Shown here in pieces: positions 22,218 to 42,793 of a stretch of DNA of 64,000 nt. Both the position numbers and the translations under genes were made by a program. The notes below the pieces were generated by a model. It saw only the letters and a list, made by a program, of their open reading frames with translations, made no database searches and was not told the origin of the DNA. Positions within the stretch are counted from its first letter, which is position 1. Each line of letters starts with the position of its first letter. The DNA is from Gammaproteobacteria bacterium. Lineage in GTDB: Bacteria; Pseudomonadota; Gammaproteobacteria; Steroidobacterales; Woeseiaceae. The stretch lies in the NCBI GenBank assembly GCA_029865385.1, contig JAOUGX010000005.1:25841-89840 (forward strand), written 5' to 3'.

Positions 22218-25200
22218 TTACGTTTTAGTGATATCGCTAGGGCGGATGCCGTAACGTGTTGAAAAACAACGGGCGAAATAGCCGGCAGTGGAAAAACCGC
22301 AATCCAGCGCTGCATTGGTGACGGTATCGCCCTCTTCAAGTTTCGCTTTTGCTTTCTGCAGGCGGAAATCGCGGAGATACATCGCCGGCGCGACATCCAG
22401 CAGCGCTTTCAGCTTGCGTTGCAACTGACGATGGCTCATGTGCATGGCATCGGCAAGATCGTTTGCATGGAATTCGGAATTGGCATAGCGCTCGTTGAGC
22501 ACGCGGCCGAGCCTATCGAGAAAAGCCTGGTCGCGTTTCGTCAGCCCGGAAATTTCCGCTGCACCATGGCCGTCGCCTGCCAGCAGCTGTTGCCGTGCGC
22601 GTTCGGCACGCAACTGACACAACTCAAGGAGATTACGCAACCGGTAGCGAAGCTCGTCCGGAAGGAATGGTTTCGCGAGGTAGTCGTCCGCCCGTTCCCT
22701 CAGGCCTTTCAGGCGGCTTGCCTCGTCGCCACGCGCAGTCAGCATGACGATAGGCACGTGCGACGTGTGCTCGTCGCTTCTAAGGCGTTGCAACACCTCG
22801 AAACCGTCGAGGCCCGGCATCATCACATCGCAAATGACGGCGTCCGGAATTCGCTCGATTGCCTGAGCCAGCCCGGTCGTGCCGTCATGCGCCTCGATGC
22901 AGCGATAATCCTCTTGCAACAATTCGACGATGAAGAGCCGCATGTCGTCGTTGTCGTCGATTATCAGGATTTCGGCAAGGTCTCTGTCAGTATCCGGCGT
23001 CGGCGTGTCCCTGAGAGACGGCCCCTGCATGTAGATTTCCGCATCGAGATCTGGCGGGATGAGCGTCGAGGGTGTCGTCCCTGCTTGCGGCACTACTGAT
23101 TTCAGCCTGACGGTGACGGTGGTGCCGGTACCGGGAATGCTGTCGATACCGATAATACCCTCGTGCGCGTCGATCAGTTCTTTGACCAGCGTAAGCCCGA
23201 TGCCCGTGCCAGGACCGGTGGCAGGACCCCGTTCGAACAGGTTGAACACGCCACCCAGGTGTTTCGCAGCGATACCGACTCCGCTGTCCGCAACCCTCAT
23301 AACGGCATCGCCGCCTTCGCGGGCAACCGAGACAGCTATGCTGCCACCGGCTTCCGTGTACTTGAGCGCATTCGATACAAGATTCACCAGAATGGTCTGC
23401 AGCGCATCCGCATTACTTTCTACCCAGACGTCATCGACAACATCGAGCGTAATTTCAATGCCCTTCTGCGCCGCTGCCGAGTTGAATTCAGCTACGATAA
23501 GACGCGCCACGGGCGCGAGCGCGATCGGCAGTCGCTCGACGTGTTGCTGGCCTCCATGTCTCGCGAGAGTCAGCAACTGATCGACAAGGTGCAGCAAGCG
23601 CTGTCCGTTGCGTTTCGCGAGTGCCAGTGACCGCTTTGCTGCGTCGGGTATGGCTTCGCGCAGGCTTTCATCGATCGGGCCCAGGATCAGCGTGATCGGC
23701 GTGCGGAACTCGTGTGACAAACGCGCGAAGAATCGGCTCTTGCTCTCCAGTGCGTCTTCGAGGTGCGCCGCCTGCCGCTCGATTGTATCTTTCTGCGCAA
23801 CGATCTTTGCCGTACGCTTTCGCACCTCGTCCGCAAGCTGCCGGGCGTGCACTCGCAAGACGCGCAGTCGCCACTGGACGAACAGCAACAAGCTCATCGC
23901 GGTAATCAATGCGAGCAGCGACTTCGCCCACCAGGTCAGCCACCATGGCGGTGCAATATGAATGCCTATCGCGGCGTCATTGACTGACCACACGCCGTCA
24001 CTGTTGGCCGCGCGGACGCGAAAAACATAATCGCCCGGATCGACGTTGGCATAGGAGGCAAATCGGCGACGAGCATCGGTCTCGGTCCAGCGATGGTCAA
24101 GTCCTTCAAGCAAGTAGGCATAGCGGTTGCGCTCCGGGCTGACAAAATGCAGCGCCGAAAACTCGAAACCGATGAAGTTCTGGTCGTAGCGTAGCTCGAG
24201 AGATGTTGTTTCCGAGATCGGCTTTTTCAGGATCGACGCCGGATCGTTTCGCGAAAAAGCGACTGGCGAATTGAACAGGCTGAAGTTGGTGATGACGACC
24301 TCGGGCGGCAATGGGTTACCAACGAGATCGGATGGATCAAAACGCGTAATACCACCGACGCCGCCAAAATAGATCTGCCCGGCACGCGTCCGCAGCGCCG
24401 CGCCACCGTTGAATTCGTTAGCCTGCAATCCGTCTTTGTACTCGTAATGACGTCCTTCGCGTTGGTGCACATCGTAACGCATCAGGCCGCGATTGCTGCT
24501 GAGCCACAACACACCGCTTTGTTCCGGGACGACGGCATAAATGACGCCCGGAATCAGTCCCTCGGACGAGGTGAATCGCTCGAACTCCCCGGATTCCTCG
24601 TCGTAACGGGCGATACCGCCTCCGGTCGCAATCCATATGCCGCCGTCCAGGTCCTCGTTGATGGCGCGAATATTGTTGTTATTGATCGTGTGACGATCGG
24701 TCGGGTCGTGCGCATGGCAACGAAAATTCTCGTCTTTGCGGGCAGCGACGCACAACCCCCGGCTCCAGGTGCCTGCCCAAAGCCGATCTTTACTGTCGTA
24801 GTAGAGCGCCGCGATATTGACGGGCCTTGTCAATTCGTCCCCGGCATTGAACAGCGCGAGGCGTCGGAACCCGGTGCCGCCGGCGGCCCGATGGACCAGC
24901 CCGCCGTCTACAAGGCCAGCGTAGAGGCCGCCTGCGCCGTCGCCGACAATTGCCGTGACAATTGCGCCCGGCAACGCGCCGGGCGAGTCGTTTGGCATGA
25001 AGCGCTGAACGCTGGCGGTTGCCGTCTCAAAACGATTCAGCCCGCCGCCCCAGGTGCCGACCCAGAGTACGCCACCGGGTTCGAGATACATGCCCCAGAT
25101 GCGATCACTCGAAAGCGACGAAGGATCGGCGGGATCCGCGCGATGGTGAATAAACCGGCTGCTGTTCGGCGCCAAATAGCTGAGGCCACCGCCGCTGCTG

Positions 25201-26369
25201 CCAACCCATACGCCGTTATTCTCATCCTCTGCAAACTCAATGACCATATTGTCGCTGAGACTGGAAGGATCGCCTGGCACGTGGCGAAAATGCGTAAAAC
25301 TGGCAGCACCGGCGACCGACCTGCTGAGACCCGCTTCCAGCGAGCCGACCCACAACACGCCGGATTTGTCCTCCAGCAACGAGTACGCCGTACTCGTGGG
25401 CAACGAATACGGATCGCTTGTCGAATGAACCACGTCGACGATCGTTTCGCCATTGTCCGTCAGGACTTTCAGACCGCCGCCGATCAGGCCGACCCAGATG
25501 CGACTGGCAGAATCTTGCAGAATGCTGCGGATCGAATATCGGCTGCCGCGTTCGGTGGACCGCACGGTAATACGGCCCAGCAAGGCTCCGTCCGGTGTAA
25601 AGCGTGAAATTACGCTGTTGCTGCCCGCCGCCCAGACTTGGCCGGACCGCAACACCTCGATGGTACGAACGTCTTCGTCGAGCAGGCTTGCGTTATCCGC
25701 ATCGAGCGGAATCAAAGTGCCGCCTTTGCTCAGATAGCGCCTCAGTCCCTGCGACGAGCCAACCCAAAGCTCATTACTTTGCACCTCTTTCAACACATTG
25801 ATGCTTTGTTCACGCACGGTGGTCAGCGGTTCGAACGTGCCAAGGCCATTATCGAAAAGGAATATTCCCTGCAGATCGGTGCCTATCCAGAACTTGCCGT
25901 CGCTGGTCTCGCAGATCTCGTGCACGTCCAGTGAAGTGTCCGCCGATCCAGCGTCCCTGCGCGAGCCGGTTATGCGAAATCTCTCGAAGTCATTCGAGTC
26001 ACGGTCATAGCGATGCACTGTACCGTCATTTGTGCCGACCCAGAGGATGCCTGCGCGGTCTTCGAATATCGTCGTTATGTTGTTGTTGGCAAGCGAACGC
26101 GGATCATCGGGATCGTAGCGCATGACGTCGAAGCGATATCCGTCATATCGATTCAGCCCGTCCTGAGTACCGACCCAGAGATAGCCGCGGCGGTCCTGCG
26201 CCAGGGCGTTGACAGAGCTTTGTGACAGGCCGTCATTGATGGTCAGGTGCTCGAACCGCATCGATTCGAGTTGCGCCGAAACGCATGCTGGCCAAGCGAG
26301 GCAAAAGGACAAAAAGAGAGTGCGGACGACGACGTCCAGTCTGGTAACCGGCCGACCCTGGCATTGCAT
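22218..26369 (-). CDS. Hybrid two-component system: propeller sensor, histidine kinase, receiver, AraC-type HTH
   Basis: A 1383-aa single-protein signalling system. A signal peptide (to about residue 33) leads to a periplasmic sensor with many two-component regulator propeller repeats of the form GYLWVGTQDGLNRYDG / GVLWVGTWGGGLNRF (about 40-680). A Y_Y_Y domain (VFRVRAANSDGVW) and one TM helix near residue 810 follow. The kinase has SHEFRTP with His at about 886 and VSNALKY with the ATP-site Asn near 1000. The receiver (about 1132-1255) has phosphoacceptor Asp about 1181 in ICDVMMPGLDG. The AraC-type HTH occupies 1279-1383. This architecture is common in Bacteroidetes polysaccharide regulation and less common in gammaproteobacteria. 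The likely target is the lipoprotein gene just downstream, which is inference. Confidence 0.93.
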   Translation of the reverse strand: MQCQGRPVTRLDVVVRTLFLSFCLAWPACVSAQLESMRFEHLTINDGLSQSSVNALAQDRRGYLWVGTQDGLNRYDGYRFDVMRYDPDDPRSLANNNITTIFEDRAGILWVGTNDGTVHRYDRDSNDFERFRITGSRRDAGSADTSLDVHEICETSDGKFWIGTDLQGIFLFDNGLGTFEPLTTVREQSINVLKEVQSNELWVGSSQGLRRYLSKGGTLIPLDADNASLLDEDVRTIEVLRSGQVWAAGSNSVISRFTPDGALLGRITVRSTERGSRYSIRSILQDSASRIWVGLIGGGLKVLTDNGETIVDVVHSTSDPYSLPTSTAYSLLEDKSGVLWVGSLEAGLSRSVAGAASFTHFRHVPGDPSSLSDNMVIEFAEDENNGVWVGSSGGGLSYLAPNSSRFIHHRADPADPSSLSSDRIWGMYLEPGGVLWVGTWGGGLNRFETATASVQRFMPNDSPGALPGAIVTAIVGDGAGGLYAGLVDGGLVHRAAGGTGFRRLALFNAGDELTRPVNIAALYYDSKDRLWAGTWSRGLCVAARKDENFRCHAHDPTDRHTINNNNIRAINEDLDGGIWIATGGGIARYDEESGEFERFTSSEGLIPGVIYAVVPEQSGVLWLSSNRGLMRYDVHQREGRHYEYKDGLQANEFNGGAALRTRAGQIYFGGVGGITRFDPSDLVGNPLPPEVVITNFSLFNSPVAFSRNDPASILKKPISETTSLELRYDQNFIGFEFSALHFVSPERNRYAYLLEGLDHRWTETDARRRFASYANVDPGDYVFRVRAANSDGVWSVNDAAIGIHIAPPWWLTWWAKSLLALITAMSLLLFVQWRLRVLRVHARQLADEVRKRTAKIVAQKDTIERQAAHLEDALESKSRFFARLSHEFRTPITLILGPIDESLREAIPDAAKRSLALAKRNGQRLLHLVDQLLTLARHGGQQHVERLPIALAPVARLIVAEFNSAAAQKGIEITLDVVDDVWVESNADALQTILVNLVSNALKYTEAGGSIAVSVAREGGDAVMRVADSGVGIAAKHLGGVFNLFERGPATGPGTGIGLTLVKELIDAHEGIIGIDSIPGTGTTVTVRLKSVVPQAGTTPSTLIPPDLDAEIYMQGPSLRDTPTPDTDRDLAEILIIDDNDDMRLFIVELLQEDYRCIEAHDGTTGLAQAIERIPDAVICDVMMPGLDGFEVLQRLRSDEHTSHVPIVMLTARGDEASRLKGLRERADDYLAKPFLPDELRYRLRNLLELCQLRAERARQQLLAGDGHGAAEISGLTKRDQAFLDRLGRVLNERYANSEFHANDLADAMHMSHRQLQRKLKALLDVAPAMYLRDFRLQKAKAKLEEGDTVTNAALDCGFSTAGYFARCFSTRYGIRPSDITKT

Positions 26370-32747: not shown

Positions 32748-33505
32748 TCTTCTACTTCCTCGTTGTCGTCACGGCTCGTGAATACCACGTAGCTTTTGTA
32801 CTCGGCTCTCAGGACGAAGCGCCGCGTCGCATATACGCGGAAGCCGGCTCCCACATGAGCAATCTGATCCGTTCGGTCCTCGCCCTGAATGATGGTCGAC
32901 TTCGGGCTGGTGTGAATCACACCGGTTCCCAGAGTGAAAAACGGCGAAATCCGCCAGTCAGGCCAAGTCTCGTGAACCACGTTAACACTGCCCATCCAGC
33001 CGTTCGAAAAATTTCCCAAAATCTGTGAACCCCATACCTCTATCGAGACATTGGGGTTGAGCGAGTACCCGCCGTATACGGAAATAATGTTCGCGCCGCC
33101 GAAATCACCGGCGACGAGACCGGCCTCCCATTTTGCGTCGGTGAAGTCCTGTTGATTGGCCTGCGCGAAGCGTGTGGTTTCGCCGTCGGGCTGCAGCGTT
33201 TGTTCCATCTGTGCCCTGTCGACCCAGCCTTCCTTGCCGTCCGGGCCGCGGACCTTGTACCAGTCCGTGCGCTGCGCCAAAACCTGGACGGTTTCGCCAC
33301 GATCAATGATGTGAAATATCGGGTAGCCGCGACCCGGTCCGGTACGCATTTCCAGATAGGGATCGGCGACCGCAACGGTCTTGTACTCGTCGGCCTGAAC
33401 AACTCCTGCGCTGATTGCCTGGGTCAGTACGACCAGGAGAGTCAGAAATGCAGATTTAATTGATCGGGACGTCGAAAGGATTGTTGTAATATTGCGCTCC
33501 GACAT
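32717..33505 (-). CDS. Exported SH3-like domain fused to outer-membrane barrel domain
   Basis: A 262-aa protein: signal peptide (about residues 15-38, ending VVQADE), a bacterial SH3-like domain (about 45-105: YLEMRTGPGRGYPIFHIIDRGE, WYKVRGPDGKEGWV), then a barrel with the strand order of the neighbouring lipoprotein (GLVAGDFGGANIISVYGGYS, SPFFTLGTGVIHT) ending WKAGFAFFF. SH3 domains of this type often bind peptidoglycan, so this may link wall and outer membrane. The ATG at 33505 overlaps the upstream HzsA-related gene by 50 nt; no later ATG precedes the signal peptide. Confidence 0.8.
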   Translation of the reverse strand: MSERNITTILSTSRSIKSAFLTLLVVLTQAISAGVVQADEYKTVAVADPYLEMRTGPGRGYPIFHIIDRGETVQVLAQRTDWYKVRGPDGKEGWVDRAQMEQTLQPDGETTRFAQANQQDFTDAKWEAGLVAGDFGGANIISVYGGYSLNPNVSIEVWGSQILGNFSNGWMGSVNVVHETWPDWRISPFFTLGTGVIHTSPKSTIIQGEDRTDQIAHVGAGFRVYATRRFVLRAEYKSYVVFTSRDDNEEVEEWKAGFAFFF

Positions 33506-36164
33506 CCAACCATTCCGCAATCAAGCGTTTCTCCGCGTCACTAAGATAACCATCGTGACTTTGACCCGCATTGAAGCGATTGAAGAATCGCCCCGATGCA
33601 TTAGCGCCCGCTGTCGACATCGACGGATTTACGGTAACGGTGACCAGAATCGGATCGCCATTGGCATCCACACCGTTTTGCACCAACCTGTCCTGCAGCG
33701 CGCCCATATTAAGCTCTTGTTCGTTATCGGGAAACAGCAATTCCCGATAAGAATTGAAGTGATCCGCCTCATCCGGCGAAATTCCATCCGTAAGATCCAG
33801 CTGACTCGCCGGCACCTGTGCCATGCCGGCGGCATCCAGCGGCGTATGACAGTTGGTGCAGTTGTTCGTAACCGGCAATCCGGTAACCGGGTCCAATACC
33901 GGCATTCCGGTCACCGGATCCAGTACCGTTCGATCTGCTCCCCACAACGGATGTATATGCATCTCGTAGTTGATGACGATTCGGCAGTTCGACGACCACG
34001 CCTGCGTAATGCAGTTAAGCGACGTGGGTGGCGGTGTCGTCAGATCCACGTAGGAATAGCGGAATGAAGTGTCTTTCAGACGGCCGGCAGCGACTTCCTC
34101 TGTCCAGACGTCATCGTATTCGATGTCCATCGACGGCTCGATGGAGGAGCACTGGTTGACGTTATCGGCACAGGTGATGCGAGCACGCACCTCAGCCATC
34201 GTCTCGCCGATCTCGCCCACAAACCACATCGGCTCGGTATTTGGAAACTCGACGCCGGCAGTCGGTGCGCCAGCGTAGGCCGAATCGAATGCATCGTAAC
34301 GGCCGTGGGAAACGCCACTCTGTGCCACGTGACAGCCGTTGCACTCGAGCAACTGTCCGGGGCGCAATTGAATCCAGTTCTGATGCCGGGCAGTGATACG
34401 CCGCCCGTTGCCATCGAGAACGCTGACCCACAGCGCGACGTTGGCCGGGACTTTCATCATGACCGAACCGTCCGGCTCGATCATCGAATAGCCGACGATC
34501 TCTTTCATGCCCTGGGCCAGATCGCGGCCGAACGCCGTATTGTCCAGGTCGAGCAGGTCCTCGTCGGGAAGCGACACGGCCTTTTCGACCCGCAGGAAAC
34601 GTGCCGGCCGCTGCGCAGCGGTCGTCTGGGCCGGGTCGGCCATCGTCGGAATGTCGACAATTGCTCCGCCGTCAAAATCGTACACGCTGCGAATGCTCAG
34701 AACGGCCGCGGCTTCCGCTGCCAGGTTCTGATCGGCGTCAAAGCGATTCTCGGTGTCGAGAATGACAGGAGGCGCCGGACGCGGATCGGCCGAAACGACT
34801 TCGGTGTACATGAAACCGACTTCGGGCGGCACGATGGGCAATTGCGTGTTGTCACGCGGGTCGTAAATCCAGATGCCGTAAGTCGGATCCGCTTCTTCGA
34901 GGAGCGGGTTTGCAAGGTTCGTAGCCGTGCACGGATAGTAAACTGCGGGCACCGGCGGCGCGTTCGGGTCGACGATGTCGGTCAAACTGCACTGCGTCCA
35001 GCTGACCATCATTCGGCCCGTGCCATCCTGTATCGGATAAACGGAGCTGTAACGACCACCCGGGGATGGCACACCAGGGACGGTCGACACGTTGACGATA
35101 GTCGCACGCTGCTGCGCCGGACCCGTCATGCCGGGATTGTCTTTGGTCGGCTGGGTGTTTTCCAGATACACCGGCGTGTCAATGACCATGATGTCGCCAC
35201 CGCCGCCGGTATCGGTGAATGGCCTTACCAGGGCCATGATGCGGCCGTCTTCGAGTTCGCGTGGTTGCACGAATTGAATAACCTGGCCGTTAGTGCCGGT
35301 ATTGTGACTGTTCTGACCGTACAGCATCTCCATCTGAGAACCGTCCGGATTCATGCGGTAGATGTTTACAGCGTTGTTCCTGGCGGCGTGATCCCAACGG
35401 CTGAAGACCACCTGGCCATTCGACAGGACCGACGCATCGAAGTCGTGCGACTGGTTGTAGGAAACCTGTTCAATGCTCGTGCCGTCCGAATTCATTACGT
35501 GCAGCACAAAGGCCGGCTCGTTCTGATCTTCATCCTCGGCGGGAAACTGCGGCTTGCCCTCGTCCAGCAATACGGCGTTCGAACGAAGCTGCCGCGTTGA
35601 TGAAAAAATGATACGGCCGTCTGGAAGGTACTTAGGCCCGATGTCGTGGCCGATTTCGGCAGTCAGATCCGACGCAATGACACGCCGCAACACGCCGGTT
35701 TCGAAGCTATATTCCCAGATGTTCCAGGTCGGCTGGCCGGGATCGTCCAGTGCAAGGCCCAGGTCGACCGGGCCGCGCATCGCAAACAGCAGCGTACTGC
35801 CATCATAGGCGATTTCCAGATCACGGACGGCTCCAAGTCCCTGGGTGATGGCTTCCGTAATATTGACATCAAGCGCGCTCGGCGAGGCGCGATCACGGAA
35901 ATAGACGTCTGCACCGAAGTTGAAAGTGACGAGTTCGCGAACGTCGGTTTGCATGAACTCACCCTGATCGTCTACAGGCAGCGGTGCCTTTACATAGGCG
36001 ATCGGGAAATCGATGATGACCGGGTCCGGCCGCTGGCCATTGCCGAGCTGCACGCCTTCTCCGCTTTCACAACCGGCAAACAGAAATAACGCAGCAATGA
36101 GTGCAAATATTCGCACGCCGCGTTGTTTCGATTCATCCATGATATTTTGCGATTGCATAGCCAT
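33456..36164 (-). CDS. HzsA-related lipoprotein with two haem c motifs
   Basis: A 902-aa exported protein. Lipobox FAGC at Cys32 is followed by a long WD/TolB-like propeller region with repeats such as YLPDGRIIFSSTRQ and VLSNGQVVFSRWDHAARNN. A CNGCH haem motif is at about 608-612, within LLECNGCHVAQSGVSHGR, and CTNCH is at about 769-773. A short tandem repeat LDPVTGMPVLDPVTGLPV precedes the second site. The layout resembles the alpha subunit of hydrazine synthase (propeller and middle domain with c haems), hence HzsA-related, but hydrazine synthesis is not implied: no beta/gamma subunits are present. The start at 36164 has GAGG 8 nt upstream. It is the first gene of the minus-strand operon. 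Confidence 0.82.
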   Translation of the reverse strand: MAMQSQNIMDESKQRGVRIFALIAALFLFAGCESGEGVQLGNGQRPDPVIIDFPIAYVKAPLPVDDQGEFMQTDVRELVTFNFGADVYFRDRASPSALDVNITEAITQGLGAVRDLEIAYDGSTLLFAMRGPVDLGLALDDPGQPTWNIWEYSFETGVLRRVIASDLTAEIGHDIGPKYLPDGRIIFSSTRQLRSNAVLLDEGKPQFPAEDEDQNEPAFVLHVMNSDGTSIEQVSYNQSHDFDASVLSNGQVVFSRWDHAARNNAVNIYRMNPDGSQMEMLYGQNSHNTGTNGQVIQFVQPRELEDGRIMALVRPFTDTGGGGDIMVIDTPVYLENTQPTKDNPGMTGPAQQRATIVNVSTVPGVPSPGGRYSSVYPIQDGTGRMMVSWTQCSLTDIVDPNAPPVPAVYYPCTATNLANPLLEEADPTYGIWIYDPRDNTQLPIVPPEVGFMYTEVVSADPRPAPPVILDTENRFDADQNLAAEAAAVLSIRSVYDFDGGAIVDIPTMADPAQTTAAQRPARFLRVEKAVSLPDEDLLDLDNTAFGRDLAQGMKEIVGYSMIEPDGSVMMKVPANVALWVSVLDGNGRRITARHQNWIQLRPGQLLECNGCHVAQSGVSHGRYDAFDSAYAGAPTAGVEFPNTEPMWFVGEIGETMAEVRARITCADNVNQCSSIEPSMDIEYDDVWTEEVAAGRLKDTSFRYSYVDLTTPPPTSLNCITQAWSSNCRIVINYEMHIHPLWGADRTVLDPVTGMPVLDPVTGLPVTNNCTNCHTPLDAAGMAQVPASQLDLTDGISPDEADHFNSYRELLFPDNEQELNMGALQDRLVQNGVDANGDPILVTVTVNPSMSTAGANASGRFFNRFNAGQSHDGYLSDAEKRLIAEWLDVGAQYYNNPFDVPIN

Positions 36165-36942
36165 TTCCATTACCTCGATACTCAAATGTGAGTGCGGATC
36201 AGTTCTCCGCAATCATCGAGCCAGCCTGAATCTCGCCGCGGCTTCCCTAACCGCTTTGATTTCAGGAATCGACGCGCACTACTCCGACATTTAAGTAATG
36301 TGTAATAGTGGACGCCGGGCACCCGACATACCGTTAACGCGATCACAAAAGGCCCGGCTTCCCGACACTTACGATTGGCAGGCCGTGACCAGCGTCACAT
36401 CGCGTAAGTCGCGCAGCGTGTCGAACACTTACTATTCGCCGACGATGGCTGCTAATAGGGCTGGAGTATAGGAAACCGAAACGATCAATGTAATGTCTCG
36501 AAAGTACGACAGTACGCAAAGTTAAGTTGTGAATTTGCATATTGCCGCTATGCGAGATGCTGCTCCTTTCGTTTCTATTTCTGAACCTATTCCTCTACAC
36601 GTATGACTTCGAGAAAAGGTTCCCTGACATTTTTTCTGCCGACAGCATCTGCAGAGAACGTTGTTGCGATTTCGTTTCGATGACGCAACAAAATTATCGA
36701 GGCGTTCCTTCAGCAGCTTCCGAAGATGTTGCAACACTGTCACGAGTTGACGTTTCTGTCTGCTATCGGCGACAGCGTCGCGACCCTTAATAATCAGCCG
36801 TTTGTGAATTGGGGTGTTCGCCTGTGTGCGGTTCGTACGACAGTCACTTGACATATAGTGATACACGACGGCTCGACGAATGAAACTGTATATGATTGTT
36901 TCTAAACAAGTAATTGGACGTTTTCGGACAACATCCGAATAC
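36165..36942. promoter_or_regulatory. Divergent intergenic regulatory region, left part
   Basis: This non-coding stretch looks less GC-rich than its flanks. It holds a perfect inverted repeat TGCGGA-N7-TCCGCA (36193-36211) in the leader of the HzsA-related gene. ACACTTACNATT occurs as a direct repeat at 36365-36376 and 36425-36436, exactly 60 bp apart. GTGAC-N4-GTCAC (36385-36398) lies between the two copies, and TCACT-N8-AGTGA is at 36844-36861. These look like regulator-binding sites. Short open frames here show no family features. Confidence 0.5.
36923..36939 (+). promoter_or_regulatory. Inverted repeat abutting the sigma-54 promoter
   Basis: TTCGGA-CAACA-TCCGAA is a perfect 6-bp inverted repeat ending 3 nt before the -24 element. 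A protein bound here would contact or block sigma-54 holoenzyme; enhancer sites normally lie farther upstream, so a repressor or architectural site is possible. Confidence 0.45.
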
Positions 36943-36958
36943 TGGCACAGCACTTGCT
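36943..36958 (+). promoter_or_regulatory. Sigma-54 (RpoN) -24/-12 promoter
   Basis: TGGCAC-AGCAC-TTGCT matches the sigma-54 consensus TGGCACrNNNNTTGCW, with GG at 36944-36945 and GC at 36956-36957 separated by exactly 10 nt. Transcription would start near 36969 and run toward the three-gene exported-haem operon, giving a leader of about 410 nt that contains the riboswitch. An AAA+ activator would be required; none is encoded in this window. Confidence 0.82.
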
Positions 36959-37119
36959 TCATACAGTGCAGATCGAGGGCAACGTTTGCCGCGAGCTTTG
37001 GACGAAACCAGGACTGTGAATGCATTCACGGTGATTTTTTCAAGACTCAGGCAAGATCTTTGATGTAAGTCCACCTGTCGACTGACAGATGTTCAAGGAA
37101 GAAACACGAACAACAGGGA

Positions 37120-37230
37120 CTTCTGAAAAGGGCAAGGTCTCACCGCTTATCTAAGGTGCGACCACGCAAAGCAACCGATCGTATGGCCGGCACATGATGT
37201 CGGTCAGATAGACAGCGGGGCTACCAGGAG
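37120..37230 (+). ncRNA. Cyclic-di-GMP-I (GEMM-I) riboswitch aptamer
   Basis: The RNA matches the Vc2 aptamer position by position. P1 is CUUCUG (37120-37125) with CAGGAG (37225-37230). Exactly six nucleotides then lead to GGGCAA, placing the equivalent of ligand-contacting G20 at 37132. A hairpin follows (37136-37163; GGUC-U-CACC with GGUG-C-GACC). The invariant ACGCAAAGC (37164-37172) places A47 at 37169. A variable hairpin occupies 37174-37204. AGCGGGG (37214-37220) and CUACC (37221-37225) end the core, with C92 at 37224. AGC (37170-37172) pairs with GCU (37220-37222), a covariant form of the Vc2 pairing. The GNRA tetraloop and its receptor are both absent, as in some family members. Retention of G20 favours c-di-GMP over cAMP-GMP. 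Confidence 0.85.
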
Positions 37231-37273
37231 AAAGGTGGACACGTCAGTAAGCTGACATTCAATCCTTCCCCCT
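37226..37273 (+). promoter_or_regulatory. Possible riboswitch expression platform
   Basis: AGGAGAAAGG (37226-37235), which includes the 3' strand of aptamer P1, can also pair with CCUUCCCCCU (37264-37273) at 8 of 10 positions, enclosing a small hairpin GUCAG-UAA-GCUGAC. The two pairings exclude each other, which is the logic of an expression platform. No U-tract follows, so Rho dependence or RNA stability is more likely than intrinsic termination. Confidence 0.45.
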
Positions 37274-37377
37274 AATAGTCCTCGTGATGACAAGTCGGCC
37301 CTTCGCTACTCGGGTTCGAGAACGTCTTCCGCTGTTTCGACATTGTTTTGATCGTATTGGTCATGAGCAGGAACGCT

Positions 37378-38607
37378 ATGAAATACATAACGTGGACAAG
37401 TCAGGAAATCATCAACGGCCAGAGCTGCGTCAATTGGCTCAGGGCGATGCCCCGGGTGTTGGTGATCGGATTGCTCTGTACGAGCGTCGCCACTACTGCA
37501 TTTGCGGGCCCGCGCGAGCAGGCTAAACAAATGCATGACCGGCTGGCTGGCGTACCGCCGACCGAAGCGGTGCTTCAGTCGATGGAGGCAGATATCGATC
37601 CGGGTCAGAACAACAACCCGCTTGCCGCTGCCAATACGGCAATGAGTAATCCCAACTTTTACAACGTGACATTGAAGAATTTCGTTGCGCCGTGGACCAA
37701 TCGCGACAGCAACGTTTTCGTGCCGCTGAACGATTACATCGCCACGGTGGTCGGCATGATTCGTGACGATGTCCCGTTCAATACGCTGCTGTCGGGCGAC
37801 ATCCTGTATGTCGCGAGCGGCGTTCCGGGACTGCCGGCCTACTCGAATACGAACAACAATCATTACGCACAGTTCGAAGCAGACGGTCACGACATGATGG
37901 CGCGATTGACGCAGACGACACAGTCTTCCGTTACCGGCCTGCCGAGTACGGCAACGGCCGGCATCATGACGACGCGCGCTGCGGCTGAGGCCTTCTTTAT
38001 CGCGGGTACAAACCGCGCGATGTTCCGCTTCACGATGCTGAATCACATGTGTAATGACATGGAGCAGGTGCACTACCTCGCGCTTCCGCCGGACCGCATC
38101 CGCCAGGACGTCAGCCGCAGCCCGGGTGGCGACAGCCGGCTGTTCCTGACGAACTGCGTCGGCTGCCACAACGGCATGGATCCGCTGGCCCAGGCCTTCG
38201 CGTATTACAACTTCAACGAAACGACCGGCAGCATCGAATACACGCAGGGCCAGGTGCAGCCGAAATACTTCAACAACGACGCCAACTTCCCTTACGGCTT
38301 CCGCACACCGGACGACGCATGGGAGAACCGCTGGCGCGTCGGCCAGAACGAGTTCCTCGGCTGGGACCAGAGCCTTCCTGGCAGCGGTAATGGCGCCAAG
38401 AGCATGGGGCAGGAACTGGCAAACAGCGATGCTTTTGCGTCCTGCCAGGTAAAGAAGGTGTTTCGTGCGGTTTGCCTCCGCGATCCCGAGGATGCAAGTG
38501 ATCGCTCCCAGGTAACGCAGATGGTGGACTCACTCAAGTTCGGCAGTCCTGCCTACAGCATGAAGCGGACGTTCGCGGAAGCGGCCGTCTACTGCATGGG
38601 CGACTAA
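37378..38607 (+). CDS. Exported monohaem c-type protein, first gene of the riboswitch operon
   Basis: A 409-aa protein with a signal peptide (PRVLVIGLLCTSVATTAFA, cleaved near residue 44). The mature part is largely helical and has one CVGCH haem c motif at 260-264 (LFLTNCVGCHNGMD). Additional cysteines occur in NHMCNDME, FASCQVKKVFRAVCLRDPE and YCMGD. The repeated PLNDYIATVVGMIRDDVPF style resembles the DUF1592/DUF1585-type cytochrome-like proteins of Planctomycetes and marine bacteria, but I cannot assign it firmly. The ATG at 37378 has AGGA 7 nt upstream. It stands 36 bp from the next gene and is controlled by the long leader described. Confidence 0.75.
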   Translation: MKYITWTSQEIINGQSCVNWLRAMPRVLVIGLLCTSVATTAFAGPREQAKQMHDRLAGVPPTEAVLQSMEADIDPGQNNNPLAAANTAMSNPNFYNVTLKNFVAPWTNRDSNVFVPLNDYIATVVGMIRDDVPFNTLLSGDILYVASGVPGLPAYSNTNNNHYAQFEADGHDMMARLTQTTQSSVTGLPSTATAGIMTTRAAAEAFFIAGTNRAMFRFTMLNHMCNDMEQVHYLALPPDRIRQDVSRSPGGDSRLFLTNCVGCHNGMDPLAQAFAYYNFNETTGSIEYTQGQVQPKYFNNDANFPYGFRTPDDAWENRWRVGQNEFLGWDQSLPGSGNGAKSMGQELANSDAFASCQVKKVFRAVCLRDPEDASDRSQVTQMVDSLKFGSPAYSMKRTFAEAAVYCMGD

Positions 38608-38643
38608 GGGGTGCTGACAATGAATAACGCAAGAGGAATTGCC

Positions 38644-41139
38644 ATGGGCATCGCGCAGAGCATGAACAAGGTTCGTACGCTCAAGTTGTTGTTGACAGTA
38701 GCATTATCTGCAACGCTGACGGCGTGCGGTGGTGGCGCACAGACTTCGGATAATCCGGTCACCAGCGTAACGCCGCCTTCGACCTACAATGGTCCGCCGC
38801 CGGCTACGGCCGAAGTTCAGGCATTCAAGCTGAATGTCTGGGACAACATACAAATGAGCAACCGCTGCGGCGGATGTCATACCGACGGCGTCGGCCAGAC
38901 TCCGATGTTCGCGCGGCACGACGACGTCAATATGGCTTTTGAAGCGGCGAACACGGTCGCCGACCTGAATCAGCCATCCGATTCACGGCTGGTCACCAAA
39001 GTTGGCAGTGGCCATAATTGCTGGCTGACCGACAACAACGCCTGCGCCGACATCATGACGACCTGGATCGAGGGCTGGGCCGGCGCTACATCCGGTGGCG
39101 GTCGACAGATTGTGCTGAATCCGCCCCCTGAAATTGATCCGGGCTCGAGCAAGAGCTACGCGAACGCGACGGTTGGGAACTTCGCCAACCTCGTGCACAC
39201 GCCGATCCTCAGACAGTACTGCGCGGGTTGCCACAGTTCACAGTCTGCTACTTCACAACAGCCGTATTTCGCGGAAACCGATGCAAACGTTGCTTTCGAT
39301 GCAGCGAAGTCGAAGATGGATCTCGACGATCCGTCCGCCTCGCGATTCGTCATCCGGCTGCGAAACGAATTCCATAACTGCTGGGACGACGGCTGCGCTT
39401 CGGCCGCTAACCAGACACAGGCCGCTATCCAGGCGTTTGCCGATACCGTGCCGTTGACCCAGCTCGATCCGACGCTGGTCAACAGCAAGGCGCTGCGGCT
39501 CGTGGACGGTACCATCGCGTCCGGCGGCAACCGTTTCGAGAATGCCCAGATCGCCCTTTGGGAGTTCAAGACCGGAACCGGCACTACAGCATTCGACACC
39601 AGCGGTGTCGAACCGGCGATCAACCTGACCATGTCCGGCGACACGAGCTGGTTCGGTGGATGGGGTATCACCATCGGTGCGGGCGGCGGCAAGGCCCAGG
39701 GTTCTACTTCATCGAGCAAGAAGCTGCACGACCTGATCAAGGCCACCGGCGAGTACTCGATCGAGGCCTGGGTCGTCCCGGCGAACGTTACCCAGGAAAT
39801 GGCACGTATCGTCACCTATTCGGCTGGCGACACGGCGCGCAATTTCACATTGCAGCAAACCCTGTATAACTACGACTTCCTGCATCGCAGCACGCAAACG
39901 AGTCTGAACGGCGATCCACAACTGTCGACACCGGACGCTGACGAAGTCCTGCAGGCCACGTTGCAGCATGTCGTCGCCACGAACAGCCCGGTCGACGGCC
40001 GCAGGATCTACGTCAACGGCATACTGGAGACGCAACTGGATCCTGTTGCGCCCGGCTCGCTGGTCGACTGGCAGGACACCTTCGCGTTCGTTCTCGGCAA
40101 TGAAGCATCGAACAGCGGATTGTGGCAAGGCACGTTCCGCCTGGTTGCCATCCATAATCGTGTTTTGACTCCGGAACAGATCGTGCAGAACTTCGATGTC
40201 GGCGTGGGAGAGAAATTCTTCCTGCTGTTCAGCATCGCTGACATCATCAATGTGCCGACCGCATACATTTTGTTCGAGGTTGCACAGTTCGACAGCTACG
40301 GCTACCTGTTCGCAGAACCGCACTTCATCACGCTTGATCCAACGCAGCAGCCCGAAGGCATACCGCTGCGTGGCTTGCGAGTCGGCATCAACGGCGCTGA
40401 AGCCAACGTTGGCCAGACTTATGCAACGATGGATCAGACCCTGTCTGCGTCGCTGTTCGGCGAACTCGGCCAGCCATTGTCCAGCCTGGGTGCTGTCCTG
40501 CCGCTGGAAAAGGGACCGGAGGACGACGAGTTCTTCCTGACTTTCGACCTGCTGGGTACACAGTCCTATGCCCGCACCTTCGACCCGCCGCTGGTCATAG
40601 TGCAGGGCGACCTGCCGGCGGCGCAGCGATTCGGCGTGCGCACATTCGACGAGATCAATGCCACGATGGCGGCGATCACGACCGTCAGCACGGAAGAGCC
40701 GAACGTCGACATCACTTTCCAGAGTCTCCGGCAGTCGTTGCCGGCTGTCGAAAGCCCCGAGGCCTTCCTGTCATCGCACCAGGTGGCAATAGCGCAGATG
40801 GCTATCGAGTACTGCAACGCACTGGTCGATGACAACGCGAAAGCAGCCGCCTACTTCCCGGGTTTCAATTTCAACCTGGCCCCGGGGACCGCTTACGCTG
40901 GAAATTCGCGAAACGCGATCATCGATCCGCTGATCGACAGAGCGATGGGCATTAGCATCCTGACGCAACCGGATTTCACGGAAGTCAGGAACGAACTTGG
41001 CTTTAGCTCCGCGAACGGCACCTACCCCGGCAACCTGATAGATCGCCTGCTGGTCAGTCCGGACAATCCGAACACGCGGGCAATCGCCAAGGCCGTATGT
41101 GCCTCGGTTATTGGCAGTGCAGTTACGCTGGTTCAGTAG
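38644..41139 (+). CDS. Dihaem lipoprotein with LamG-like domain
   Basis: An 831-aa lipoprotein (lipobox LTAC, Cys28). Two repeated N-terminal modules each hold a haem c site, CGGCH at 75-79 and CAGCH at 193-197, followed some 50-60 residues later by an HNCW...C motif (GHNCWLTDNNAC and FHNCWDDGC), so the module is internally duplicated. A concanavalin/LamG-like domain follows at about 260-520 (YSIEAWVVPANVTQEMARIV, RRIYVNGILETQ, GTFRLVAIHNRVLTPEQI). The C-terminal 300 residues are unfamiliar. LamG domains bind glycans or proteins. AGAGGA 6 nt upstream supports this ATG; ATG at 38620 is an alternative. Confidence 0.82.
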   Translation: MGIAQSMNKVRTLKLLLTVALSATLTACGGGAQTSDNPVTSVTPPSTYNGPPPATAEVQAFKLNVWDNIQMSNRCGGCHTDGVGQTPMFARHDDVNMAFEAANTVADLNQPSDSRLVTKVGSGHNCWLTDNNACADIMTTWIEGWAGATSGGGRQIVLNPPPEIDPGSSKSYANATVGNFANLVHTPILRQYCAGCHSSQSATSQQPYFAETDANVAFDAAKSKMDLDDPSASRFVIRLRNEFHNCWDDGCASAANQTQAAIQAFADTVPLTQLDPTLVNSKALRLVDGTIASGGNRFENAQIALWEFKTGTGTTAFDTSGVEPAINLTMSGDTSWFGGWGITIGAGGGKAQGSTSSSKKLHDLIKATGEYSIEAWVVPANVTQEMARIVTYSAGDTARNFTLQQTLYNYDFLHRSTQTSLNGDPQLSTPDADEVLQATLQHVVATNSPVDGRRIYVNGILETQLDPVAPGSLVDWQDTFAFVLGNEASNSGLWQGTFRLVAIHNRVLTPEQIVQNFDVGVGEKFFLLFSIADIINVPTAYILFEVAQFDSYGYLFAEPHFITLDPTQQPEGIPLRGLRVGINGAEANVGQTYATMDQTLSASLFGELGQPLSSLGAVLPLEKGPEDDEFFLTFDLLGTQSYARTFDPPLVIVQGDLPAAQRFGVRTFDEINATMAAITTVSTEEPNVDITFQSLRQSLPAVESPEAFLSSHQVAIAQMAIEYCNALVDDNAKAAAYFPGFNFNLAPGTAYAGNSRNAIIDPLIDRAMGISILTQPDFTEVRNELGFSSANGTYPGNLIDRLLVSPDNPNTRAIAKAVCASVIGSAVTLVQ

Positions 41140-41170: not shown

Positions 41171-42793
41171 ATGGCTAAGAAACGCAAAGTCCGAGACCTG
41201 GATGCTCCGCAGCTTCACGGCGATCATCCGCGTCCTGTTACGCGTCGCGAATTCGTCGCGCAGGGTTTCCTGTCAGGATCGGCATTCGCTGTAGGCGGCG
41301 GTGTCATGAGCCTGTTCTCGAACCCGCGCGAGGCATTCGCCGCGTTGTCCGGTGACTTGACGCCGTTACTGTCGAGCCCCTGCAATATCGCAACCGCAGG
41401 TGCCGGCAAGATTCCGTTTATCTGCTTCGACCTTGCGGGCGGCGCGAACATCGCTGGCTCCAATGTCCTGGTCGGCCAGGAGGGCGGACAGCTGGATTTC
41501 CTCAGCACCTCGGGTTACGAGAAGCTCGGCCTGCCCGGTGACATGGTTCCCGGACTGACCGATCCCGTAACCGGACCGTATGCCAACACCGATTTCGGGC
41601 TTGCCTTCCATTCGGACAGCGCATTTCGCCGCGGCATTCTGGGCAGCATGAATCCGGCCCGCGCAGCGAACCTGACCGGTGCCATCATTCCGGCGCGCTC
41701 GGATAACGACACATCCAACAACCCGCATAATCCGCTGTACGGCATAGCGCGTGCGGGCGCCAACGGATCGATCGTCAGGCTGGCCGGAACCGAAAACAGT
41801 GATTCCGGCGGCAACTCGATGATCCCGGCCATGATGATGAATCCGGAATTCCGGCCAACCAAGGTGGATCGTCCAAGTGACGTTACCGCCCTGGTCGACA
41901 CCGGCCAGCTGGTCGGTATCCTCGGCCCGAACGATGCCACCGCGGTCATGGAATCAATCTACCGTCTCAGTGACAAGAAAATGGGTACGGTCGACGCCGG
42001 CCAGCAGGTCACCGCCAGTGCTGTAGTCAAGGACATGGTGGGCTGCGGCTACCTGAAAGCCGCCGACATCGCCGATCGCTTCGGTGGCACGCCGCTGGAT
42101 CCGGGCCAGGATCCGATGATCGTAGGCCCCGGCGGCATCTTCAGCGACGCCGAATTCAATGACGGCGGTCGTGACGGCCAGGAATTCCGCAAGACGGCTT
42201 CGGTCATGAAGCTGGTCATGAACGGTTTTGCCGGTGCCGCCTGTATCGAAATGGGCGGCTACGACTACCACGGTGGTCAGCGTCGCGAAGGCGAGGTCAA
42301 GGACTTCCGTGCCGGCCGTTGCATGGGCGCCTGTATCGAATACGCAGCACGCATCGGCGTTCCGCTGATGATGTACGTATTCAGTGACGGTTCGCTCTCG
42401 AGCAACGGCGTCATCGACAACTCGATCGACGGTCGTGGCAAGGGTGAATGGGTCAGTGACAACTCGTCGACTGCCGCATCGTTCTTCATGGTATTCAATC
42501 CGAACGGCCGGGCTGTGCTCCGCGGTGCCAATGCCGCCGAGCAGGCAATGCATCAGCAGCTTGGTTACATGGACGCGGGTGCCAACGTAGCGCGTGCCGC
42601 GACGCCTGCCGCCAACAACGTCAACCTGCTGGTGAACACCGTGATCCTGAATTACATGGCATTGCACGGCGAGGAAGGCAATTTTGCCGGCCTGTTCCCG
42701 AACCATGGTCTCGGAGACTCGACCCTTCGCGACCGCATGACGGCATTCGACGCCATCGTGCAGGGACAGATCGGTCCGCTGAATCCCTCTTAA
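41171..42793 (+). CDS. Tat-exported DUF1501-like protein
   Basis: A 540-aa protein with a twin-arginine signal, TRREFVAQGFLSGSAFAVGGG (Arg25-Arg26 followed by a hydrophobic stretch), implying export in folded form. The mature part contains KIPFICFDLAGGANIAGSNVLVG and GGYDYHGGQRREGEVKDF, which resemble the DUF1501 family of sulfatase-like folds, in which Asp/His residues would bind metal. Such proteins are typically encoded beside DUF1585/DUF1592/DUF1800-type partners, as here beside haem proteins. No cofactor can be named with certainty. It is the last gene of the riboswitch operon and is followed by a strong hairpin. Confidence 0.78.
   Translation: MAKKRKVRDLDAPQLHGDHPRPVTRREFVAQGFLSGSAFAVGGGVMSLFSNPREAFAALSGDLTPLLSSPCNIATAGAGKIPFICFDLAGGANIAGSNVLVGQEGGQLDFLSTSGYEKLGLPGDMVPGLTDPVTGPYANTDFGLAFHSDSAFRRGILGSMNPARAANLTGAIIPARSDNDTSNNPHNPLYGIARAGANGSIVRLAGTENSDSGGNSMIPAMMMNPEFRPTKVDRPSDVTALVDTGQLVGILGPNDATAVMESIYRLSDKKMGTVDAGQQVTASAVVKDMVGCGYLKAADIADRFGGTPLDPGQDPMIVGPGGIFSDAEFNDGGRDGQEFRKTASVMKLVMNGFAGAACIEMGGYDYHGGQRREGEVKDFRAGRCMGACIEYAARIGVPLMMYVFSDGSLSSNGVIDNSIDGRGKGEWVSDNSSTAASFFMVFNPNGRAVLRGANAAEQAMHQQLGYMDAGANVARAATPAANNVNLLVNTVILNYMALHGEEGNFAGLFPNHGLGDSTLRDRMTAFDAIVQGQIGPLNPS

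Follow-up and report, generated by a model that had tools for sequence, protein, structure and literature searches.

The leader of a predicted exported haem/LamG operon in a sediment gammaproteobacterium of the family Woeseiaceae combines a divergent c-di-GMP-I (GEMM-I) aptamer with an upstream RNA domain that presents a predicted CsrA/RsmA-binding hairpin. We favor the reading that this leader responds to both c-di-GMP, via the aptamer, and CsrA, via the hairpin, and consider it somewhat better than an even call with the mechanism proposed below included. If true, it would join two global lifestyle signals on one RNA, as c-di-GMP and the Csr/Rsm system are both involved in the choice between a motile and a settled lifestyle. 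The analysis covers a stretch of 64,000 nucleotides of genomic DNA (the window); its leader, aptamer and genome are called the query in the following (Table 1). The original prediction for this DNA had recognized the aptamer and remains incomplete in having passed over the upstream Csr/Rsm-type domain, a competing outer helix and a sigma-54-type promoter, and also in not noting that sister genera have a decayed aptamer or none.

Table 1. Features of the query leader and operon, in window coordinates.
Feature	Position	Strand	Description or basis
Sigma-54-type promoter TGGCACAGCACTTGCTT	36943-36959	+	Exact string; inferred transcript start near 36969
Dyad TGTGAATGCATTCACGG (TGTGA-N6-TCACGG)	37015-37031	+	CRP/FNR-like half sites
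Upstream RNA domain	37067-37122	+	15-row alignment A2, covariance model R1, pair counts, consensus fold
Helix A, AAGUCC/GGACUU	within 37067-37122	+	Encloses hairpin B and the Csr-type hairpin
P0 5' strand GUCCACCU	37069-37076	+	GUCC common to helix A
Hairpin B	37075-37088	+	Inside helix A
Csr/Rsm-type hairpin UUC-AAGGAA-GAA, hexaloop ANGGAX	37092-37103	+	Consensus from PMC4005645 and PMC7652899
c-di-GMP-I (GEMM-I) aptamer	37120-37230	+	Rfam alignment, orthologs, RNAalifold
P1 of aptamer	37120-37125/37225-37230	+	
GGGCAA segment of aptamer	37130-37135	+	Contains G20 equivalent, 37132
P2 of aptamer	37136-37163	+	
ACGCAAAGC segment of aptamer	37164-37172	+	Contains A47 equivalent, 37169
P3 of aptamer	from 37170 to 37222	+	
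AGCGGGG segment of aptamer	37214-37220	+	
CUACC segment of aptamer	37221-37225	+	Contains C92 equivalent, 37224
P0 3' strand AGGUGGAC	37233-37240	+	Just 3' of the aptamer
Hairpin D, GUCAG-UAAG-CUGAC	37243-37256	+	After the aptamer; pyrimidine-rich stretch next
Gene 1	37378-38607	+	Predicted exported protein, one CxxCH, 409 aa
Gene 2	38611-41139	+	LamG protein, two CxxCH, 842 aa
Gene 3	41171-42793	+	Twin-arginine-like N-terminus (by eye), 540 aa

A divergent c-di-GMP-I aptamer and its orthologs

The segments on which the original prediction rested, namely P1, GGGCAA, ACGCAAAGC, AGCGGGG and CUACC, were each recovered at their predicted positions in a check of the sequence, as were the equivalents of the ligand-contact bases G20, A47 and C92 (G, A and C, respectively), which we take from the Vc2 numbering. 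At the curators' thresholds, Rfam reported only a single tRNA in the whole window, and not the aptamer. The RF01051 covariance search that had been suggested as a check, with a sub-threshold score to count as refutation, gave 30.3 bits at the aptamer (E 7.8e-4, whole 3.9-Mb genome) against a gathering score of 35 bits, so that by this rule the prediction formally falls. With the model RF03167 (c-di-GMP-I-GGC), the gathering score of which is 59 bits, the alignment spans the aptamer over its full length (37122-37229) and scores 28.7 bits (E 7.2e-5, permissive threshold, 401 bases searched). A loose core grammar, derived from the query copy itself, had its sole match in the window at the aptamer site (two overlapping starts) and none in 100 dinucleotide shuffles. 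Given this uniqueness, the empty shuffles and the existence of homologous leaders, the query aptamer is more than a chance likeness.

Leaders were collected by a DNA search of 60 relatives, nine of which (the query included) gave a match, and by protein searches with gene 1; all are from Woeseiaceae. Six of them have the long form: the query, G001 and G002 from a single genus, and G009, G010 and G006 (the G001 contig stops ahead of gene 1, with no start codon in view). Among the homologs, RF01051 scored G009 at 40.8 bits, above the cut-off of 35, and G001, G010 and G002 at 30.5, 30.1 and 28.5 bits; it returned no match at the G006 leader at E up to 1. The equivalents of G20, A47 and C92 are all kept in five of the six rows of alignment A1, including the query; G006 has U at the 47 equivalent and two broken P3 pairs. 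RNAalifold, run on the six rows without a preset structure, recovered the P1, P2 and P3 junction, with kept two-sided change in 10 of the 32 consensus pairs. On P1/P2/P3, 90.8% of the cells are paired in these rows, compared to at most 48.8% with slid partners. The core hardly varies over the six rows, and hence shuffled partners often equal the real ones: of 500 partner shuffles, 49 reached the covariation score, 113 the cells paired, 197 the two-sided cells, 391 the pairs so changed and 454 the pair types. The core and contact bases are intact in three genera (that of the query with three genomes, g8 and g9), with compensated changes in P2 and P3.

A GNRA tetraloop in P2 that docks into P3 is typical of c-di-GMP-I RNAs, without being strictly defining. 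The query P2 is closed by the 10-base loop GCUUAUCUAA and lacks such a tetraloop; by eye, only G001 among the six long-form rows has a GCAA loop in P2. The query resembles the Vc2-type RNAs in its GGGCA, ACGCAAAGC and AGCGG-G segments, the P1/P2/P3 junction and the equivalents of the three contact bases, but differs in its score under the cut-off, its 10-base P2 loop without evident tetraloop docking, its long and variable P3 hairpin, and its position inside an extra outer helix with a Csr-type domain ahead. While the query copy itself stays sub-threshold, orthology, the retained contact bases and one ortholog above the Rfam cut-off uphold the class originally assigned, and we are confident that this is a divergent, sub-threshold member of c-di-GMP-I, which, as predicted from its sequence, likely binds c-di-GMP. 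Such sub-threshold aptamers indicate that family cut-offs in Rfam can hide orthologs in the Woeseiaceae clade.

As to the c-di-GMP setting, the query genome has 22 GGDEF matches and, elsewhere, five c-di-GMP-I aptamers over the cut-off, and 97 of 107 genomes of the family have at least one over-threshold c-di-GMP-I match. At L005 (G000:C185), we observed a long c-di-GMP-I aptamer of 114 bases that is barely over the cut-off (35.3 bits); aptamers of 112-117 bases also occur in G009, G018, G021 and G027, perhaps as another divergent ortholog group. Another over-threshold aptamer (47.7 bits; L205 3241-3331, G024:C18) lies about 2 kb 3' of gene 3 of G024, directly ahead of what by eye are chaperone-usher pilus-like genes.

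An upstream domain with a predicted CsrA/RsmA site

Over 15 leaders, 91.4% of the cells of the upstream domain are paired on the named structure, as opposed to at most 46.4% with slid partners. Eight cells show two-sided change, compared to a mean of 2.0 in 500 shuffles, none of which reached this number; two of the five pair-count measures were less extreme (two-sided pairs were reached by 57 of the 500 shuffles and pair types by 47), and all such shuffle counts overstate independence, as the leader rows are related by descent. A consensus fold of the 15 leaders yielded the hexaloop hairpin unprompted, and all three helices except for the outermost pair of helix A. The model R1 scores 67.2 bits at the query domain, whose row is part of the model. 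Taken alone, the 5' domain is no more stable than shuffles (z -0.27).

As described in PMC4005645, the hexaloop ANGGAX of a high-affinity Csr/Rsm site sits immediately on its stem, the closing pair of which is C-G and the next U-A. The query hairpin, UUC-AAGGAA-GAA, has this very form, and UUC-ANGGAA-GAA is near the CsrA SELEX consensus RUACARGGAUGU reported in PMC7652899. The closing pair is C-G in 13 of the 15 leaders and the next pair U-A in 14; within the loop, N varies between A, G and C, with the A, GG and A positions invariant or nearly so. The stem itself reads GUUC/GAAC in six leaders, while G004 and G014 have CAUC/GAUG. A strict pattern for such hairpins matched 12 times in 59 leaders (again with related rows), whereas 50 shuffled sets gave 1.5 matches on average and never more than 4. 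Ten of these 12 matches are in the 13 domain-bearing leaders scanned, a set from which G001 and G063 were left out and in which the pattern misses G009, G010 and G061; the remaining two are elsewhere (L049 and L059). In L049, a leader that lacks the upstream domain, the hairpin GACC-AGGGAA-GGTT sits 117 bases ahead of the gene 1 start as projected and is possibly an independent CsrA site.

In its tight form, the query stem has just three pairs, and RNAfold favors a wider hairpin around the same loop. We set this wide form aside: over the 15 leaders its helix pairs 80% of cells versus 88.3% for the tight form, with a covariation score of 0.091 versus 0.160. The genome has two CsrA-family genes, the main one of which keeps L4 and R44, given as RNA-binding residues of CsrA in PMC7652899. 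The query GCAGGAAC precedes the ATG of gene 1, and a GGA is found near the start in 13 of 13 leaders and, as AUGGAU, also in G063; it may be Shine-Dalgarno or codons. The Csr hairpin lies 286 bases from the gene 1 start in the query. Judged from projected starts, this distance is about 190-200 bases where the core is excised (five leaders) and 111-113 in the two leaders that lack the aptamer. Taken together, we regard the hairpin at 37092-37103 as a probable CsrA/RsmA site.

A strand common to two predicted helices

The strand GUCCACCU is the reverse complement of AGGUGGAC, and the outer helix P0 that they can form has at least eight pairs in 10 of 13 leaders; it is degraded to 6, 6 and 5 pairs in G024, G061 and G063, respectively. 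In G009, P0 has nine pairs with changes in both strands. Over the 13 leaders, pairing with the own partner was beaten or matched by swapped partners in 197 of 20,000 permutations. As both P0 and helix A need the GUCC strand, they are mutually exclusive. For a transcript ending before the 3' strand of P0 (37050-37232), the lowest-energy fold contains helix A (-53.5 kcal/mol); for 37050-37242, P0 is preferred (-63.9 versus -55.7). Over the leader 36969-37385, the unconstrained optimum is the A fold at -125.8, with the P0 fold nearly equal at -125.4, and with the aptamer helices enforced, P0 with a six-pair P1 is favored (-120.8 versus -116.7). By these secondary-structure energies, which leave out tertiary contacts, a bound ligand should shift the leader toward P0. 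Several folds also paired the AGGUGG strand with a CCUCACC-like segment further downstream; this third possible partner was dropped, being absent from the query leader.

Proposed mechanism and its alternatives

In the mechanism we propose, GUCC at 37069-37072 would have two exclusive partners. Without ligand, it would pair locally with GGAC in helix A, with the Csr hairpin held in a closed three-helix domain. c-di-GMP would fold the aptamer with its full six-pair P1, whereby helix A would lose its outer three pairs; GUCCACCU would then pair with AGGUGGAC 3' of the aptamer, and the resulting P0 would enclose hairpin and aptamer as one unit. This exchange would alter the repression of gene 1 by CsrA, bound both at the hairpin and at a GGA that overlaps or neighbors the ribosome-binding site. 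Such a two-input switch, in which the aptamer trades the common strand between local and outer helix and thereby governs how the hairpin is presented to CsrA, is put forward tentatively; to a joint c-di-GMP/CsrA mechanism in general we give somewhat less than, or at most, an even chance. That c-di-GMP switches the operon, as had been proposed originally, we continue to infer.

The alternatives concern either the aptamer or its neighbor. The query aptamer might be decaying, having kept the look of its class and lost useful c-di-GMP binding, a fate that has likely befallen G006 and the excised forms. Its sub-threshold score and missing tetraloop would fit, as would the state of G006 (A47 equivalent replaced by U, two P3 pairs broken) and the excision of the core in seven leaders; nevertheless, G20, A47, C92 and the core persist in three genera with compensated P2/P3 changes, making decay rather improbable. 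There is still less reason to expect an aptamer for another cyclic dinucleotide, of the cAMP-GMP or the c-di-GMP-I-GGC type. Although RF03167 is the best clan match by E-value, RF01051 gives slightly more bits (30.3 versus 28.7, the latter to be set against the 59 of RF03167), and the RF03167 consensus has ACGCGAAGC where the query has ACGCAAAGC. The variant positions likewise keep their c-di-GMP identities. The cAMP-GMP variant of GEMM-I is marked by A at position 20, where the query has G (37132), and we read the GGC in the name of the other class as bases 20/47/92, hence G at 47, where the query has A. The bases that set ligand preference are thus, on our assumption, of the c-di-GMP type.

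With respect to the neighbor, the riboswitch alone might be regulatory, acting through a downstream platform of hairpin D and the pyrimidine-rich stretch, perhaps Rho-dependent, with the upstream domain as mere structural support. The aptamer scores, the orthologs and the RNAalifold junction would all fit, and hairpin D has 74.7% of its cells paired on the given structure (1 of 500 shuffles as high) and 10 two-sided cells, albeit 12 when partners are slid one column. However, the upstream domain persists in seven core-excised and two aptamer-less leaders and is hence not merely a support for the aptamer; each position of the loop agrees with the Csr consensus; and C exceeds G over the 70 bases after the aptamer in only six of 13 leaders. 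We therefore judge this reading unlikely, if the most serious of the alternatives. Finally, the AAGGAA loop might be the Shine-Dalgarno sequence of a leader peptide or pair with the pyrimidine-rich tail: the loop is AAGGA-like and the query tail has CUUCC, but by eye the query leader has no start codon at ribosome distance, and the tails of the leaders compared do not conserve UUCC, so that we give this very little credence. The reading of the loop as a CsrA/RsmA site remains preferred.

Comparison with known leaders

We take glgC to be the gene of the two-site CsrA leader, with a hairpin and a Shine-Dalgarno site. In a CsrA-controlled leader of this kind, a high-affinity hairpin site is combined with a weaker site over the Shine-Dalgarno sequence, according to PMC7652899; the query likewise has a predicted hairpin site upstream and a GGA in or near the Shine-Dalgarno sequence, but its aptamer sits between the two. 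With the RsmE-type single-hexaloop target, as described in PMC4005645, the query shares the ANGGAX hexaloop and the closing C-G then U-A, whereas its tight stem has just three pairs and competes with the wider hairpin. A further parallel is the Escherichia coli moaA leader, in which a riboswitch aptamer and CsrA sites occur together and which the authors of a CsrA review call, to their knowledge, the first riboswitch aptamer also under the control of an RNA-binding protein (PMC7652899). The moaA aptamer senses Moco and is itself bound by CsrA, whereas in the query an aptamer of the c-di-GMP class has the predicted CsrA site outside it, in a domain of its own. Judged by the titles and abstract openings of the papers listed, a literature search for CsrA and c-di-GMP riboswitches gave no paper describing both in one leader, and one for Woeseiaceae and riboswitches found no paper. 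The new element here is the neighboring Csr/Rsm-type domain together with the strand common to both domains.

Distribution and history of the leader forms

R1 detects the upstream domain in 15 of the 107 genomes of the family, in each case within the gene 1 leader (gene 1 is in view in 14). Of 246 genomes sampled from the order, family members among them, six have the domain; all six are within the family, and both searches used strict filters. The idea of a module also used elsewhere was dropped, the R1 matches being confined to the gene 1 leader bar a weak extra match in G062 (27.1 bits). Gene 1 is present in 83 of the 107 genomes, and in 69 of these R1 finds no domain; hence, the domain belongs to part of the family. 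Among the 15 domain-bearing leaders, the aptamer is intact in five, decayed in one, reduced by excision of its core in seven (G018, G021, G024, G027, G061, G062 and G063) and lacking in two (G004 and G014).

A midpoint-rooted tree of gene 1, built from 40 proteins chosen from the fetched loci (G001 and G063 absent; the G002 row a fragment on a long branch), showed the long forms to be scattered rather than united in one group. Near the base of the family clade come G006, G009 and the query genus, in no supported order; G010 groups as sister (83/85) with the large set of leaders that have neither aptamer nor domain. The six excised leaders in the tree form one group (98/89), which adjoins the aptamer-less g3/g2 group (96/92 together). 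Most simply, a single old aptamer was lost several times, being excised in g12, decayed in g5, and gone in g3/g2, g6 and g10; repeated gain is also conceivable. The relatives thus constitute a natural series, from intact through decayed and excised to absent aptamers, while the predicted protein-sensing partner stays, and they allow the loss of a riboswitch to be tested within one gene family. At L088 (G002:C151), gene 1 is in two pieces with TGA stops, which may be an assembly error or a pseudogene.

The operon, its promoter and the region 3' of the aptamer

The original description of an exported haem/LamG/DUF1501 operon holds for the CxxCH motifs of genes 1 and 2 and for the LamG domain of gene 2 (PF13385, E 4.9e-18), but DUF1501 in gene 3 was not borne out: for this gene Pfam lists no family at an E limit of 10, with filters that drop most matches above about 0.1. 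Its GGYDYHGGQ stretch is, to our eye, reminiscent of DUF1501 proteins. Among the 120 homologs of gene 3 listed, those named are hypothetical or, oddly, GspF; its best sequence match in the PDB has E 0.45, which indicates no relative there, and its AlphaFold model, with a mean pLDDT of 45.3, was set aside. Gene 1 has weak DUF1588/DUF1585 similarity (E 0.14/0.16, under the Pfam cut-offs), and none of the five proteins scanned with NCBIfam matched a family above its cut-off. The leader offers a lead to the role of this haem/LamG operon.

We read TGGCACAGCACTTGCTT as a sigma-54 promoter; the pattern TGGCAC-N5-TTGC was recovered upstream of many orthologs. The half sites of the dyad presumably resemble CRP/FNR sites. 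Promoter and dyad (the latter by eye) are strongly conserved and recur in relatives with and without the aptamer. The dyad lies 3' of the inferred start, an unusual place for an activator site. Beyond the aptamer, the region of hairpin D has a mean folding z of -1.46 over 13 leaders, and RNAalifold returned no pairs on its alignment (A4). The query leader has no clear terminator or Shine-Dalgarno-masking platform: an intrinsic terminator was rejected, as by eye no U-run follows hairpin D, and a Rho-dependent platform was kept as a possibility only, with C over G in six of the 13 leaders, equal in three and under G in four. Across the leader region from the operon lies a divergently transcribed gene (33456-36212, minus strand), the 918-aa product of which has two CxxCH motifs and a hydrazine-synthase-alpha middle domain (PF18582, E 4.1e-13). 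Also on the minus strand, 22218-26369 codes for a large hybrid two-component protein with a Reg_prop propeller, a kinase, a receiver and an AraC-type HTH.
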